A stretch of DNA of 64,000 nt from Bacteroidota bacterium. Its GTDB lineage: Bacteria; Bacteroidota; Ignavibacteria; OLB7. The position numbers were made by a program, and so were the translations under genes. How positions within the stretch are numbered: position 1 is the stretch's first letter; every line of letters starts with the position of its first letter. The DNA lies in NCBI GenBank assembly GCA_018266795.1, contig JAFDZV010000004.1, positions 325,445 to 389,444 of the forward strand. The letters run 5' to 3'. Below are positions 26,858 to 60,100 of the stretch, in pieces. The notes beneath the pieces are model-generated. The model was not told where the DNA came from. It made no database searches and worked only from the letters and a program-made list of their open reading frames with translations.

Positions 26858-26870
26858 GCCCGAAGATAGT

Positions 26871-26978
26871 GGTTCGGGGTCAGTAGTCAGTCGTTCGTCG
26901 TCGGTAGGGTGGAGCGAAATGTTGACGTTCCCGATCTTCCGGGTGCGCGCCACCAACTGACCAATGACCACTGACAGC
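26871..26978. repeat. Degenerate 7-bp repeat element, site A
   Basis: A G/T-rich array of five heptamers (26871-26905, for example GGTCAGT then AGTCAGT) is followed by a 45-base spacer and an A/C-rich array of four heptamers (26951-26978, for example TGACCAA then TGACCAC). The two arrays are roughly inverse complements. The spacer can form GGTGGAGCG with CGCGCCACC (one mismatch). The element lies 14 bases upstream of the SrkA-like start codon and has the same architecture as sites B and C around mutL. Confidence 0.7.
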
Positions 26979-37367: not shown

Positions 37368-37368
37368 G

Positions 37369-37578
37369 CTTCGTTCTTGGCTCTTCGTTCGTGGTGCTTC
37401 GTTCTTGGCTCTTCGTTCGTGGTTCTTGGTATTTGGCAATCCGTTCGATGTACGTGCTGTGGCGGTTGAGACACTTCCCATCCGGCAGATCCGCTGCCGG
37501 GCTCCACAGCCGGGCGATCAAAGCACCAAGTACCAAGTACCAAGTACTACCGACAACTGACTACTAACAACCGACATC
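37369..37578. repeat. Degenerate 7-bp repeat element, site B (5-prime of mutL)
   Basis: Ten G/T-rich heptamers (37369-37438, such as CTTCGTT then CTTGGCT) begin just after the CrtC-like stop. They include a 28-bp block repeated once with one mismatch (37369-37396 and 37397-37424). An 84-base spacer contains the perfect stem CCGGCAG with CTGCCGG inside CTGTGG with CCACAG. Eight A/C-rich heptamers (37523-37578, such as GTACCAA and CGACAAC) then run to 4 bases before the mutL ATG. Confidence 0.85.
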
Positions 37579-37582
37579 TCCC

Positions 37583-39538
37583 ATGTCCCGCATTCATCAA
37601 TTGCCCGATTCGCTCGCCAACAAGATCGCTGCCGGTGAGGTTGTGCAGCGTCCGGAATCGGTGGTGAAGGAGCTCGTGGAGAACGCGCTCGATGCCGGCG
37701 CCACGCAGATTGCCGTGGTGGTTCGCAATGCCGGAAAGTCGCTGATCTACGTGAGCGACAACGGCATCGGCATGGATGAGGATGACGCGCAGATCGCATT
37801 TCAGCGGCATGCCACCAGCAAGATCGCGACGCAGGATGATCTGGACCGGATCATGACGCTCGGCTTCCGGGGCGAGGCGCTTGCCGCCATTGCCGCCGTT
37901 GCCCAGGTGGAGTTGAAGACGCGTCGTGAGGATGACGAGCTCGGGACGCTGGTGCGGGCCGAGAACGGTGCAATCGTGGAGGTCACGAAAACCGCGATCG
38001 AGCGCGGCACGTCGATAGCAGTGAAGAATCTCTTCTTCTCCGTTCCCGCGCGCCGCAAGTTCCTGAAGTCGAACGCAACGGAGTTCAAGCATATCGCCGA
38101 AATGATGCAGCGCTTCGCGCTCTCCTATCCGGAGGTGGCGTTCACGCTGAGCGAGGACGATACGCTGGTGATGAATGTCCGTTCCGGGACGTTGGAGGAG
38201 CGTATTCAGGCGCTTTACAATCAGGAGATGATGAACGCGCTCCTTCCGTTCCATGTTGAGGGGGAGGGCATTGTGGCGCGCGGATATGTTGGCCGTCCGA
38301 ACTTCGCCCGCAAGTCGCGGAGCGACCAGTACATGTTCCTCAACGGACGGCACATCGCGAGCAAGCTTCTCTCGCACGCGATCTTCACCGGGTACGAACA
38401 CCTTATGGATGCGCAGGGCTATCCGCCCTACATCATCTTCCTGGAAATCGATCCGGAGCGTGTGGATGTGAACGTGCATCCCACGAAGTCCGAAGTGAAG
38501 TTCGACGACGAGAATCAGATCTATCAACTGTTGCAGCGCGGCACGCGCGAGACGCTGTCGCGATTCAACCTGACTCCCGCGATGACGCTCCCCGGCGGCG
38601 GCGCATCCGATACGGCTGAGAGCGTGATCGCGGCGCTCCGCTTCGCGCTGCCCGGGTACGATCGTCCGGAGGCCTTCCCGGTGCCGTCCTCCGGAGCGCG
38701 TCCAGACGCGGGCGCCGGCCCCGGAACGCGTTCGGCGGAGTCGTGGCGCGATCGGTCGCCGGCTCCGGACGCCTGGCGCGATCGCTCCGCGGAGAATGCC
38801 CGGGGAGGGATGACGAGCGACATGTTCCGCCAGCTTTTCGGCGAGCCCCGGTCGCCCGCGCACACGGACGTGCAACAGGCGGCAGGGATGGGGGGCGCGC
38901 AACCGGAGGCATTTCCCGGCATGGTGCATCGCCAGGAGGTGCGCGCGGTGGAGGAGGGGGCGCCGGAGCGGAGCGGGCTGTGGCAGATTCACAACAAGTA
39001 CATCCTCTCCCAGATCCGTTCGGGCATCATGATCGTGGACCAGCATGTGGCGCACGAACGGATACTCTACGAACGTGCGCTTGCCAGCATGCGTGCGGCG
39101 ATGCCGATGTCGCAGCAGCTTCTCTTTCCGTTGGAGATGAAGGTTGCACCCGCGGAGTATGCGTTGCTGCGCGAGCTGAGGAGCGATCTGCTCTCGCTTG
39201 GCTTCGACATCACGCTGGAGAAGGGGGAGCAGGCGATGATTCACGGCGTACCGAACGATGTTCGTGCCGGGCAGGAGGGGGCCATCCTTCGCGAACTGCT
39301 GGATCAGTATCTCGAGTACCAGCAGATGGGGAACACCGATCAGCGCGATCTCATCGCCGCCTCGTTTGCATGCCGCGCATCGATCAAGGCAGGCGATCCG
39401 CTCTCGCAGGAGGAGATGCTGAATCTGATAGAACAGCTCTTCTCCACGTCCATGCCGTACGTGTGCCCGCACGGCCGCCCGATCGTGATCCGCATCGATC
39501 TTGCCGAACTGGATCGGCGGTTCGGGCGAACGTCGTAG
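37583..39538 (+). CDS. mutL: DNA mismatch repair endonuclease MutL
   Basis: A 651-residue protein. The N-terminal GHKL ATPase (about 1-330) has KIAAGEVVQRP, ELVENALDAGA, VSDNGIGM, RHATSKI and GFRGEALAAI. A Pro/Gly/Arg-rich linker (about 365-460) leads to the C-terminal dimerisation and nicking domain. The endonuclease motif reads DQHVAHERILYE, with Val in place of the usual Ala but the metal-binding D, H and both E retained. CRASIKAGD, CPHGRP and the final FGR are also present, so it should be a nicking MutL as in bacteria lacking MutH. The start at 37583 follows the heptamer array directly and has no Shine-Dalgarno sequence. Confidence 0.96.
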   Translation: MSRIHQLPDSLANKIAAGEVVQRPESVVKELVENALDAGATQIAVVVRNAGKSLIYVSDNGIGMDEDDAQIAFQRHATSKIATQDDLDRIMTLGFRGEALAAIAAVAQVELKTRREDDELGTLVRAENGAIVEVTKTAIERGTSIAVKNLFFSVPARRKFLKSNATEFKHIAEMMQRFALSYPEVAFTLSEDDTLVMNVRSGTLEERIQALYNQEMMNALLPFHVEGEGIVARGYVGRPNFARKSRSDQYMFLNGRHIASKLLSHAIFTGYEHLMDAQGYPPYIIFLEIDPERVDVNVHPTKSEVKFDDENQIYQLLQRGTRETLSRFNLTPAMTLPGGGASDTAESVIAALRFALPGYDRPEAFPVPSSGARPDAGAGPGTRSAESWRDRSPAPDAWRDRSAENARGGMTSDMFRQLFGEPRSPAHTDVQQAAGMGGAQPEAFPGMVHRQEVRAVEEGAPERSGLWQIHNKYILSQIRSGIMIVDQHVAHERILYERALASMRAAMPMSQQLLFPLEMKVAPAEYALLRELRSDLLSLGFDITLEKGEQAMIHGVPNDVRAGQEGAILRELLDQYLEYQQMGNTDQRDLIAASFACRASIKAGDPLSQEEMLNLIEQLFSTSMPYVCPHGRPIVIRIDLAELDRRFGRTS

Positions 39539-39541
39539 AGG

Positions 39542-39634
39542 CAGTCGTTATTGGTCAGTAGTCAGTAGTCAGTAGGATAATGATTCACTATCCGACCTGT
39601 TGTTTTACCAACGAACGACTAACCAGACACTCTA
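39542..39634. repeat. Degenerate 7-bp repeat element, site C (3-prime of mutL)
   Basis: Five G/T-rich heptamers (39542-39576, CAGTAGT type) begin 3 bases after the mutL stop. A spacer of about 30 bases includes the stem GGATA with TATCC. Four A/C-rich heptamers (39607-39634, such as ACCAACG then AACGACT) follow, the last one containing the stop codon of the convergent membrane protein gene. The architecture is the same as at sites A and B. Confidence 0.8.
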
Positions 39635-56598: not shown

Positions 56599-57085
56599 TA
56601 TCGAATCCGTGAATCTTGTGCTTCGCTGGCTCCGGAGCCTCCGCCGAGCAGGGCGGCATGGTGCGCGGCCGTTCGGCGCTGCCGGCACGGCGGGTTGGCG
56701 GTTGGCAGTCCGCCATGATCCGCGTCGATGTACGACTGGCGTACGATCGCCGGCAATTCGCTGCAGGCAATCAACCGGTTCGCATCCTCGATCAACAGCG
56801 ATCGGTCCGCGAAGCCGGCAATGCCCGGCAGTAATGGAAAGCTAATCGGAATTTTTGATAGAGACGAGCCGCAGCCATTTCGGCCGGAGCTGAACGAGGG
56901 TCTGAACGGGATGAGTCGAGTATTGCCGTTCCTGGACGGCGTAGGGAAGATAGGTTCCGGGCATGCGCCATGCCACTATCGATGAGCAGTTGGAGGATTA
57001 TCCGATGTGGATGAACGGATTCCCGTGACCGGCGGCGCCACGGCGGTCCAATGCCCGTGGGCGCAGGGCGGCTTGCAGCCGGCCG
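56599..57085. other. Intergenic stretch between sprA and the propeller operon
   Basis: I see no gene. Several short Arg/Pro/Gly-rich frames on both strands lack domains. The 13-bp repeat array begins at the right edge of this stretch. The promoter for the 55537-56598 operon should be here, but no clear element was found. Confidence 0.4.
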
Positions 57086-57190
57086 CCCCTTGGCGGCGCC
57101 CCTTGGCGGCGCCCCTTGGCGGCGCCCCTCGGCGGCGCCCCTCGGCGGCGCCCCTTAGCGTCGTCTCTTGGCGGCCGCCCCCTAGCGGCC
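57086..57190. repeat. 13-bp GC-rich tandem repeat overlapping the sprA stop codon
   Basis: Eight units based on CCCCTTGGCGGCG: units 1-3 identical (57086-57124), units 4-5 with one change (TC for TT), and units 6-8 increasingly diverged, the last having 14 bases. The final unit contains the sprA stop codon (57182-57184 read on the minus strand) and its last codons. Adjacent units place GGCGCC sites in inverted arrangement, so the array can form many alternative hairpins and may end sprA transcription. Confidence 0.9.
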
Positions 57191-60100
57191 GCCCGAGATG
57201 CCGATCCGAAGATCGATCCCCACCCGGGTTGTGCTGCGGCTGATGTCGCGCGAACCGGCGGCATCGGGGATCGTTGCCTCGTAGCTCACGAACGCAGAGG
57301 CCTGCACCGTGTTCGAGAGTGTGTAGCGGAACTGCGGACGGCAGCTGATGCGCGTGGATCCGTCGTTGTTCCCCTCCGGCTGGAAGTTCGTCAGATCGAA
57401 CCGCTTCCGGTTGGTTCTGCCGTACGTGAAGTTCAACTGGAACTCCACGTCGTTCTTCAGATTGAGCCCGAAGAGTGGAAGCGAGAGGCCGCGCTTCTGA
57501 TAGGCGAACTGCAGCTCCAGATCGTTCTTCAACTCCTTGGAGACTTCGCTCCGGTCCGATGTGATCAGCGAGAAATCGCTCGTAGTGCGATACGTGATCG
57601 AGCCGCTCATCGTTCCCTTCCAGTAGTCCGGAAGGCCGGTCACGTTGATCTGAATCAGGGGCGAGAACCCGCGCGAGACAGTCTGCGATTCCGGTATCTC
57701 ACCTTGGTCCGTGATCCGATAGTTCTCCGTGTACTGGCTCTTGTATTCGTGCCGCACGGAGACGCTGGACGCCCAGCCCGAGAAGAAGGGGAGCTTCTGC
57801 AGGTTGTTCCAGGTGAACCGCCAGTTCACGCGCGGGAGGTATCGCGCAAGATTGCCGGGAAGCCAGTTGAATGCCTCCAGCTGCTGCTCGAAGATGCGGG
57901 AGGTAAGCTCCGTCAGTTTCCGGTTGTAGACGTTCAATGCGGAGTCCGAGCCGGGCCCGGACGGAGCAGGGCCCAACCCACCGCGCTGCTGGATGTATGC
58001 ATTGGCGATCCCCTCGATATCGTTGCCGAACGGATCGAACCCGAAGAAGCTCGGCAGGCTCAGGTAGGTGCGCGAGATCTTGCCCGTTGTGCGCGGGTTC
58101 GAGATCTCCTGCACCACGCCGTTGCCGTCCGTGGTGACGAAGTAATCCTTGTTGTACCCCCACTCCAGATTCCAGTTCAGCGTAAGCCGTGCATCGGTCC
58201 ACAGATCGCGATCGGTGGTTGCGGTGAGGCTGTTGTTCTGCGTGAAGCTGTTCGGTGCGAAGATGTTCGGCGCGCGGATCCCCTGCTCGCTTGTGACATC
58301 GACGAAGGGGAAACGCGAGGATGGATGGAACGAAAGCGTGCCGTTCGGATCGGAGGTAAGGCCGAGCTGATAGGCCGTGCCGGGACCGAAGTCCGGTGAC
58401 TCCGAGCGGAACAGAAGCGAGCGGCCCCAGAGATTCGAGACGCCGGTGGAGCCCACGATGCCCGGGTTGTTGGAACGATTCGCCTCGGTGAAGCTGAAGC
58501 GAACCGTCTGGAAGTCCAGCAGCGGAACCTTGATCAGATATCGCAGGATGTTCGTGATCACGCCTGCGCTGTCGGCGGCGCGGTCGTTGCCGAAGATCGC
58601 CGTGCCGATCGAGGCCAGCCGGACATCGAGGCCAAGCGTGGCGTTGCTGGTCCAGTCTGCGGACTTCGTGTATCCACCTACACGGCCGGCGGTGACAGGA
58701 ACCAGATCGTCGTGCCAGTGATACCGCACGGTGTAGTTCGCCGACGGCGTGAGGTAGCTCTCCGCGTTCGGGATGAAGGGGATGCGCGGCCGCGTGTTGA
58801 ACGTGATCTTCTGATTCAGATCCTGATCCAGTCCGAAGTTGAACAGGCGCCCTTCCTTCAGGAAGATCTCCTTCGCGATCTCGCCTCCCGTGCGCTGTGT
58901 GCCCATCAGATCGGTCTCCAGATGAGCCAGCGAACTGGTGGCGTCCACGGAGTAATCCGTGGTCACGTTCACGATGCCCCCCTCGGTCATCTGCCAGTTG
59001 AACTGCGCGTTGCGTGTGGCGTGGAAGTCGCGCACAACCGGGCTCGGCTCCGGGATATTGCGCAGCTGCTCCGTGGTGCGTCCGCGCGTGAACGATGTTC
59101 CGGCGCTCAACTGCGATGGAAGGAAGTTGATGCGGAAGTCCTTCCAGAAGTTCAGTACCGGCACGCTTCCAAGGAAGGTGAGCGGCTGCAGATCGTACTT
59201 CCGCGGGATGTCCACCGCGTAGCGCCCCTGAAACACCCACTGCCAGCGGAACCGCTGCTCCACGATCGGCGAACGCTCGCGCGTCTGGTCGTACGTGTAG
59301 CCGAACGTGAGGCGGTTCAGCAGATCCTTCACCATCCAGTTCTCGCCGGGGAAGTTGATCTTGATGTTGGAGAGGGCGAACCCATCCTGAACCACCAGCG
59401 TTTCGGTTGCATTGCGCAGACTGTCCGCCTGCTTGCGCGCGGAGTCCGGGTTTATGCCGGTCTGCTCGCCGATCTGCCGCACGGCGGCATCAACCTCCAC
59501 ATCGGACTGCGATACATAGCGTGGCTTCTCGATCTTCTCGGAGTGCTTGTATACCAGCGGGAGCGACGATCCCTTGAACGCGTTCGGCAGGAACTTCTCC
59601 ATCCGGAAATCCGAATTGAACGCCCAGTCCGTGGCCTCCACACGATTGCCGAACCGCTCCTCGAGTTGATGGAAGTTCGGGTTCACCCGTTTCACATTGT
59701 AGTTGAGCGTCCCAAGGTCCGCCAGTTTCGCGTTGGCCGCAAGCGTTGCGGCCCAGTCGCTCGCGTCCTCCGCGCTCGTAGCCCGCAGTTCATCCACCCA
59801 CATCGTGGTGGAGAGCGAGCCGGGGTAGGCATTGTTGACGATGCCGAACGCGATGAACTGCACGCGCGTGAGCGAGGGGATTCCCTTGATGAAGAACTTG
59901 TTCCCGGGCTGTCCCGGAACCGCGAAGCCGTCCGGGTTGGGCGCCTGCCCCTTGATTGCCGCCAGGTCGCCGAAGTTCACCGTGTATTCGTTCCATCCGC
60001 GGAGCAGCGGCACGCGATACTCGTAGTAGTTCAGCGAGTCCCAGCCGAAGCGCATGAACGCGATCACCTTCGGCGCCTGTCCCGGCGTGGGCTGATCGTC

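Follow-up and report, generated by a model that had tools for sequence, protein, structure and literature searches.

The two sites of degenerate 7-bp repeats that bracket the mutL gene of this genome are ordinary copies of a dispersed repeat, and nothing in them is specific to mutL. The repeat is present in many copies (an estimated total of about 350 arrays), lies mostly between genes, keeps almost exclusively to a period of 7 bp, and is gained or replaced between sister species. Where two arrays stand in inverted orientation, the G/T-rich strand comes first, an order that is near-absolute across about eight phyla. Some copies at unlinked loci are homologous to one another, and duplications of several units at a time are found within the arrays.

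Arrangement of the repeats around mutL

The window, the whole 64-kb stretch of DNA that was analysed, contains mutL with one repeat-bearing gap on either side (sites B and C; Table 1). Direct reading of the sequence revealed the same layout in both gaps, a G/T-rich array of heptamers followed by a spacer and then by an A/C-rich array of heptamers. The G/T-rich unit on the + strand, with the consensus T-[C/T]-[A/G/C]-G-T-N-[G/C], is designated F and its reverse complement R, so that the order of the arms is F-R-R in site B and F-R in site C. Site B occupies nearly all of the 215-bp gap upstream of mutL (37368-37582), and site C nearly all of the 93-bp gap downstream of it (39539-39631). The next gene, on the - strand, ends at 39632, convergent with mutL and separated from it by 93 bp.

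Table 1. Coordinates of the repeat-bearing sites and of mutL in the 64-kb window
Feature	Position	Strand	Description
Site B, F array	37369..37446	+	About 11 units of the TTCGTTC/TTGGCTC type; begins right behind the stop of the upstream gene
Site B, spacer	37447..37522	.	7-bp stem CCGGCAG (37482-37488) / CTGCCGG (37494-37500)
Site B, R array	37523..37578	-	CCAAGTA units, then CAACTGA/CTACTAA units
mutL	37583..39538	+	DNA mismatch repair endonuclease MutL, 651 aa; TIGR00585, 518 bits
Site C, F array	39541..39575	+	TCAGTAG type
Site C, spacer	39576..39608	.	Most of a short stem, GGATA (39575-39579) / TATCC (39589-39593)
Site C, R array	39609..39634	-	CAACGAACGACTAACCAGACAC
Third composite	26866..26974	.	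F array 26866-26907, 46-bp spacer, R array 26954-26974

An earlier note on this DNA had described degenerate 7-bp arrays on both sides of mutL, and these were borne out by the sequence itself, by Tandem Repeats Finder, and by a profile scan. Tandem Repeats Finder reported arrays with periods of 7, 14, and 28 bp at 37369-37447, and with a period of 7 bp at 37521-37547 and 39554-39575. The profile scan placed the G/T arm of site B at 37370-37446 and its A/C arms at 37523-37550 and 37547-37574, and the two arms of site C at 39541-39575 (G/T) and 39609-39622 (A/C). The sites abut the gene as closely as had been stated: 4-8 bases lie between the array of site B and the mutL ATG (37583), the figure varying with the end chosen for the last unit, and site C begins 3 bases past the stop (39538). 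The described composite form, with a hairpin in the spacer, held in part; the arms are inverted and a short stem is present in both spacers, but the hairpin does not define the element, as many composites have unrelated spacers of 8-18 bp. Likewise, the inverted match between B and C across mutL exists, but extends over no more than 10 bp when exact and 22 bp at 86%. The change in unit number that had been envisaged is partly borne out by a 28-bp (4-unit) tandem duplication inside the left (F) arm of site B, detected by Tandem Repeats Finder in this one genome. The window holds a third FR composite of this family (26866-26974), which the earlier finding on mutL does not mention. The window also carries tandem arrays that are not heptameric and are unrelated to these repeats, with a 12-bp unit (CTGCGCCCATGC, 7.7 copies) and a 13-bp unit (CGCCCCTTGGCGG, 8.4 copies), at 1-92 and 57084-57194, and a T9SS sorting domain is encoded within it, which points to the Bacteroidota side of the tree.

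Abundance, period, and polarity

A search for further copies, which the earlier note had proposed, found them throughout the genome, a draft of 71 contigs. With a genome-trained profile and a score of at least 15, 105 arrays were detected in 678 kb, compared with 4 in Markov-simulated sequence, and 99 of the 105 were intergenic. The pattern GTCAGTAGTCAGTAGTC, allowing up to 2 mismatches, matched 175 + 105 places genome-wide, against 0 + 1 for its reversed control; exact 4-unit matches numbered 279, against 1 for the control. In three other genomes (G024, G060, and G326), the reversed control pattern was itself abundant (tens of matches, on both strands), a possible sign of another family of heptamers whose consensus is the mirror image. 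The scaled estimate for the genome is 347 arrays in 189 clusters. Densities were taken from 893 kb of stretches that were in part picked around matches, and the density in three unselected stretches (23 arrays in 384 kb) agrees with the scaled estimate.

The period of 7 bp exceeds chance expectation, as shown by the excess over Markov sequence and by a comparison of periods in the window, where the lag-match threshold was reached at 38 places for period 7, at one place for period 6, and at none for periods 5, 8, 10, and 11. A profile-free scan, requiring about 35 bp with 86% column agreement, gave 2.7 period-7 arrays per 100 kb in this genome (G000), 11.9 in G003, and 13.2 in G004, whereas other periods tested in the three genomes gave 0-0.6 (0 for periods 6 and 8 in G000). 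The same scan revealed no array of any period in 80 kb of G001, which belongs to the same genus. The commonest units are TCAGTAG, TCAGTGG, TCAGTTG, and TTCGTTC, and the degeneracy is confined, with T1, G4, and T5 each conserved at about 90%. Several unrelated heptamer types coexist in one genome, and the 7-bp period remains constant.

These numbers also define how common the situation of mutL is. Arrays were found on at least one side of 117 of 554 sampled genes and on both sides of 13, indicating that genome-wide roughly a hundred genes share the bracketed position of mutL. In the 893-kb sample, the 10-mer common to B and C, ACTGACTACT, was counted 46 times. A special link to mutL is thus not supported.

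The order of paired arrays was found to be fixed. In this genome, pairs no more than 300 bp apart comprised 42 FR, 6 FF, 9 RR, and 0 RF. For other bacteria, 80 named loci were fetched, all with one single-array pattern, and their pairs no more than 400 bp apart comprised 36 FR, 6 FF, 16 RR, and 0 RF. The records with FR loci belong to Bacillota, Planctomycetota, Acidobacteriota, Cyanobacteriota, Chloroflexota, Bacteroidota, Verrucomicrobiota, and Pseudomonadota, although several are metagenome bins whose names are uncertain. The binomial probability of the combined 78:0 outcome is about 7e-24. Because detection had relied on one profile, polarity was recounted using arrays defined by period 7 only and oriented only by the excess of G over C. 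This profile-free count gave 97 FR and 6 RF pairs, and 72 FR and 6 RF when at least one arm carried another unit, indicating that unit types beyond TCAGTNG/TTGGTNC follow the same polarity. An FR pair reads as FR on either strand, so that the rule does not depend on the direction of the genes.

Plain slippage, in which the arrays would be microsatellites with nothing special about them, has to be weighed against these results. In-register duplications do exist, and 7-nt loops should be poor substrates for MutS, which is present in all genomes tested. However, slippage does not favour a period of 7 over 6, 8, or 9, and it does not create inverted pairs of a single polarity. We consider it very improbable as an explanation.

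Turnover, gene context, and folding

Comparison with relatives revealed conserved synteny and variable arrays. The orientation of mutL and the identity of the upstream gene are the same in G001, G003, and G004. The gap before mutL, 215 bp here, measures 58 bp in G001 and contains no arrays, so that site B is absent from that genome. In G004, the gap holds a different composite, with a left TCAGTGG array and a TTCCCGA/AACCCGA array that reaches the ATG, and in G003 it holds a short remnant. The sister genomes G003 and G004 are 80-89% identical across aligned blocks; one orthologous gap contains about 286 bp of arrays in G004 and none in G003, and two further gaps contain unrelated sequence in each genome, with arrays in one or both. 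Judged from these gaps, the time that separates sister species is enough for arrays to be gained, lost, or replaced, and the examined sites have retained their synteny. No insertion with exact boundaries or with a target duplication could be made out in the compared gaps, as the flanking gap DNA is too diverged. A dispersed repeat of about 100-160 bp, containing CTCATGCTGAGCTCCGTCGAAGTATGAG, lies beside heptamer arrays in G004 (C26; L296:10056-10220) and in many contigs of G003. It was considered as part of the array family in these two genomes, and proved to be a different repeat of about 160 bp.

The earlier note had raised the possibility that mutL is a contingency locus, in which recombination between the inverted arrays flips the gene, or slippage tunes its expression and thereby the mutation rate. 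It is true that the arrays on the two sides of mutL are turned towards each other, with the 22-bp match, and that site B abuts the start codon. However, exact inverted identity is limited to a 10-bp string that recurs widely, bracketing by arrays is common among other genes, the same-genus relative lacks site B, and the shared orientation and upstream gene in three relatives speak against an inversion switch. This reading is, in our judgement, extremely improbable.

Among gaps of 60-600 bp, arrays were present in 42 of 212 between co-directional genes (20%), 10 of 64 between convergent genes (16%), and 5 of 58 between divergent genes (9%), a difference that is not significant (p 0.13). Among 58 arrays facing a stop codon, 37 had their outer end no more than 20 bp from it; for starts, which were crudely predicted, the corresponding count was 15 of 46. 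These distances fit better with insertion or growth that is tolerated away from promoters than with a dedicated terminator or leader. A tRNA-like gene, judged by eye, was also seen between two F arrays (C10:47858-48031 of this genome; L123), and arrays may therefore flank RNA genes too.

The relationship between the two arms of a composite was analysed in 36 loci. The inner 21 bp of the arms matched less well within a locus (0.680) than when arms were swapped (0.709 ± 0.010), position 6 of the second unit was identical in 8% of cases within a locus compared with 27% after swapping, and the folding energy was -38.7 kcal/mol with own arms compared with -41.2 kcal/mol with swapped arms. Same-locus arms are thus less complementary than swapped ones, which argues against a maintained hairpin. 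A hairpin function was rejected, as the arms do not co-evolve, and fold-back copying of one arm into the other is contradicted by the absent similarity of arms within a locus. Taken as a class, composites have a more stable fold than shuffled sequences (mean z -2.9), because any F arm and any R arm are roughly complementary, whereas sites B and C fold only weakly better (z -1.1 and -1.3). Selection against perfect palindromes is plausible.

These results bear on the proposal that the arrays are RNA elements selected at gene ends, where they would act as bidirectional terminators or insulators (through a Rho-type C-rich stretch or a stem) and, before starts, as unstructured A/C leaders. A leader role of the A/C type before start codons has been proposed for TAACTGA repeats (PMC4679880). 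The way in which arrays hug stop codons, the A/C arrays that precede starts, the folding of composites as a class, and the position of site C between convergent genes 93 bp apart, where array-free G001 has a strong hairpin behind mutL (GTCGGGGCGGTTTTTAAAACCGCCCCGAC; L092), are all consistent with such a role. However, dependence on the type of gene pair is not significant, the arms of a locus are less complementary than swapped ones, B and C themselves fold only slightly better than shuffles, no intrinsic terminator was found, and a search of Rfam gave no match. We regard selection as gene-end RNA elements as unlikely.

The spacers are mostly short and mostly unrelated, so that most composites are not demonstrably copies of one another. 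Families with a common spacer and similar arms were nevertheless found at unlinked loci (AAAATACAACC at three loci, TGTGCTTGG at two), and site C shares 38 identical bp, running from the array into the spacer (39554-39591), with a position on contig C4 (about 188.5 kb). Higher-order repeats of 21 and 28 bp are present elsewhere. One inter-array spacer (L005, around 1350-1500; contig C1, about 154.8 kb) includes a palindrome of the GTCATTCTGAGGGAGCAAAGCGACCGAAGAATCT type; this seems to belong to another dispersed repeat family that has come to lie within the composite.

Known heptamer repeats and possible origins

The likeness to heptamer repeats of the cyanobacterial type, pointed out in the earlier note, is upheld by the exact 7-bp units, the dispersal, and the mostly intergenic location. 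The STRR sequences of Calothrix are seven-base tandem repeats in multiple copies, as here, with different unit sequences; to our knowledge, they have not been described as forming inverted pairs.

The composite form had been thought unfamiliar, but related pairs have been described in two other groups. The GGGAATC heptamers of Xanthomonas and the GGGGA(C/T)T heptamers of Nostoc are dispersed, degenerate, about 90% intergenic, and mostly of 4 units (Rehm et al. 2015, PMC4692102). Xanthomonas has 70-75 close convergent GGGAATC pairs with the G-rich strand first, the same order as here, and its unit in the phase TCGGGAA fits T-Y-V-G-K-N-N; these pairs were noted without a test for the missing reverse order (PMC4692102). 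The G-tracts of the Xanthomonas and Nostoc units can form quadruplexes, whereas the units here (TCAGTAG, TTGGTAC) cannot, and no tract of three or more G occurs in the commonest units.

TAACTGA direct repeats are intergenic and patchily distributed across phyla, in Beggiatoaceae, cyanobacteria, and Bacteroidetes, with indels of 7 nt among strains of Cyanothece and, in Bacteroidetes, shorter homologous gaps that lack arrays (MacGregor 2015, PMC4679880), both of which agree with the array turnover seen here. Their reverse complement, TCAGTTA, is one base away from the TCAGTTG unit. However, TAACTGA repeats are mostly lone arrays just 5′ of start codons, with one inverted pair, whereas here inverted FR pairs prevail, unit types are mixed, and outer ends lie closer to stops.

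In Geobacter metallireducens, class 3 paired sites consist of five MTYCTGA heptamers, mostly in opposite-strand pairs, at 16 sites; such opposite-strand pairs of heptamer or octamer sites were read as binding sites of a global regulator (IHF/HU) (PMC2700814). The reverse complement, TCAGRAK, resembles the unit here, although the sites there number only 16. Cooperative binding of a nucleoid or IHF/HU-like protein would agree with the confined degeneracy of the unit and with the fact that three units (21 bp) span two helical turns. The coexistence of several unrelated heptamer types in one genome, the fast replacement in sister species, and the lack of arrays in a same-genus relative argue against it, and we regard protein-binding sites as a quite improbable origin.

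REPINs, which accompany RAYT genes, consist of two inverted repeats with a spacer, and are dispersed, extragenic, mostly fixed in relative orientation, and predicted to form a hairpin (Bertels and Rainey 2011, PMC3116915). Of the known systems, their architecture is nearest to that of the composites, with two inverted arms, a spacer, and an extragenic location. The arms of REPINs are conserved palindromic sequences, whereas those here are heptamer arrays with no sign of compensatory pairing, and two defining features of REPINs, the accompanying RAYT and the paired arms, are lacking here.

Sites B and C are two of some 190 copies of a non-coding, intergenic dispersed repeat, and the reading of it as a REPIN-like element that grows by in-register duplication stands about an even chance. 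The element is bipartite, with two inverted degenerate 7-bp arrays, the G/T-rich strand first, and a variable spacer between them. Arms and spacer would be copied together into intergenic gaps in a REPIN- or MITE-like manner, and new copies would be tolerated chiefly right behind stop codons. The arms would lengthen and change as one or more whole 7-bp units are tandemly duplicated in register, and selection would prevent them from turning into perfect palindromes. Any effects on mutL, as an A/C-rich leader or as a barrier between convergent genes, would be incidental. Copying of one element does not predict that unit types vary within a genome while the period stays fixed, and no mobilising gene for such copying was found among Y1/RAYT and RVT_1 candidates (Pfam models). 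The lack of a clear-cut insertion in the compared gaps and the unrelated spacers of most composites also count against it.

Several candidate engines were tried in that search. Pfam-model searches for the Y1 transposase domain (Y1_Tnp, PF01797) gave no match in array-rich G003, yet three in array-free G001, and six in G000; a RAYT/Y1 transposase was rejected as the engine. An IS200-like Y1 transposase gene (177 aa) with arrays of several unit types on both sides was seen in L271 (G385 C91, about 12.7 kb); it could be there by chance or could be an element with arrays as its ends, and chance suffices for one case among 30 fetched loci. A reverse transcriptase (RVT_1, PF00078) was absent from all six array-rich genomes searched (G000, G003, G004, G008, G205, and G385) with the Pfam model, which a diverged enzyme could escape, and a Pfam-detectable reverse transcriptase was set aside as the engine. 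The hairpin nuclease SbcD is present in array-rich G000, G003, G004, and G205 as well as in array-poor G001 and G002, and MutS in 24 of 24 genomes tested; neither tracks array content, and loss of either was rejected as the cause.

An enzyme that works like telomerase offers another scenario, in which the 3′ G/T strand on both sides of a break is extended in 7-nt steps and the ends are joined, leaving the G/T-first order as a scar. It would account for a period that is independent of sequence, for the polarity, and for unlike arms, and the bacterial DRT10 reverse transcriptases, which synthesise tandem-repeat DNA from a short RNA template in a telomerase-like manner (PMC12632851), provide a precedent; no link between DRT10 and heptamer arrays emerged from the present data. 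However, RVT_1 was not detected in the six array-rich genomes, a diverged enzyme being able to escape the model, units vary inside one array in a way that the product of a single template would not, and synteny is retained at the examined sites. We judge a telomerase-like origin to be rather improbable. Also unlikely, in our judgement, is the broader view that many phyla share a machine that advances along the G/T-rich strand 7 nt at a time, for the most part whatever the unit sequence, with the mutL sites as two of its scars. That such a machine would be a DNA-synthesising or copying one, so far undescribed, which leaves G-strand-first inverted pairs in intergenic gaps, is part of the same view and equally tentative.

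Heptamer arrays and convergent pairs have thus been published before, and the cross-phylum rules of polarity and period appear to be new. The near-exclusive period of 7, the near-absence of the reverse order across phyla, and the refilling of orthologous gaps with different arrays were not found demonstrated in the papers searched. For mutL, the lesson is a warning, as bracketing of a gene by inverted repeats is in this genome a background event at the level of 2%. The question shifts from mutL to what makes heptamer repeats, and to a rule that is common to many unrelated bacteria. Earlier work had met such repeats one group at a time, in cyanobacteria, Xanthomonas, Geobacter, and Beggiatoa, and had explained them as quadruplexes, global-regulator sites, or translation signals. 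A single process behind all of them is suggested by the shared period, by a polarity that hardly varies across about eight phyla, and by the turnover of arrays between sister species. In that case, its enzyme or copying mode is still to be found, and such an engine could be searched for by comparing array-rich with array-free species of one genus or family.
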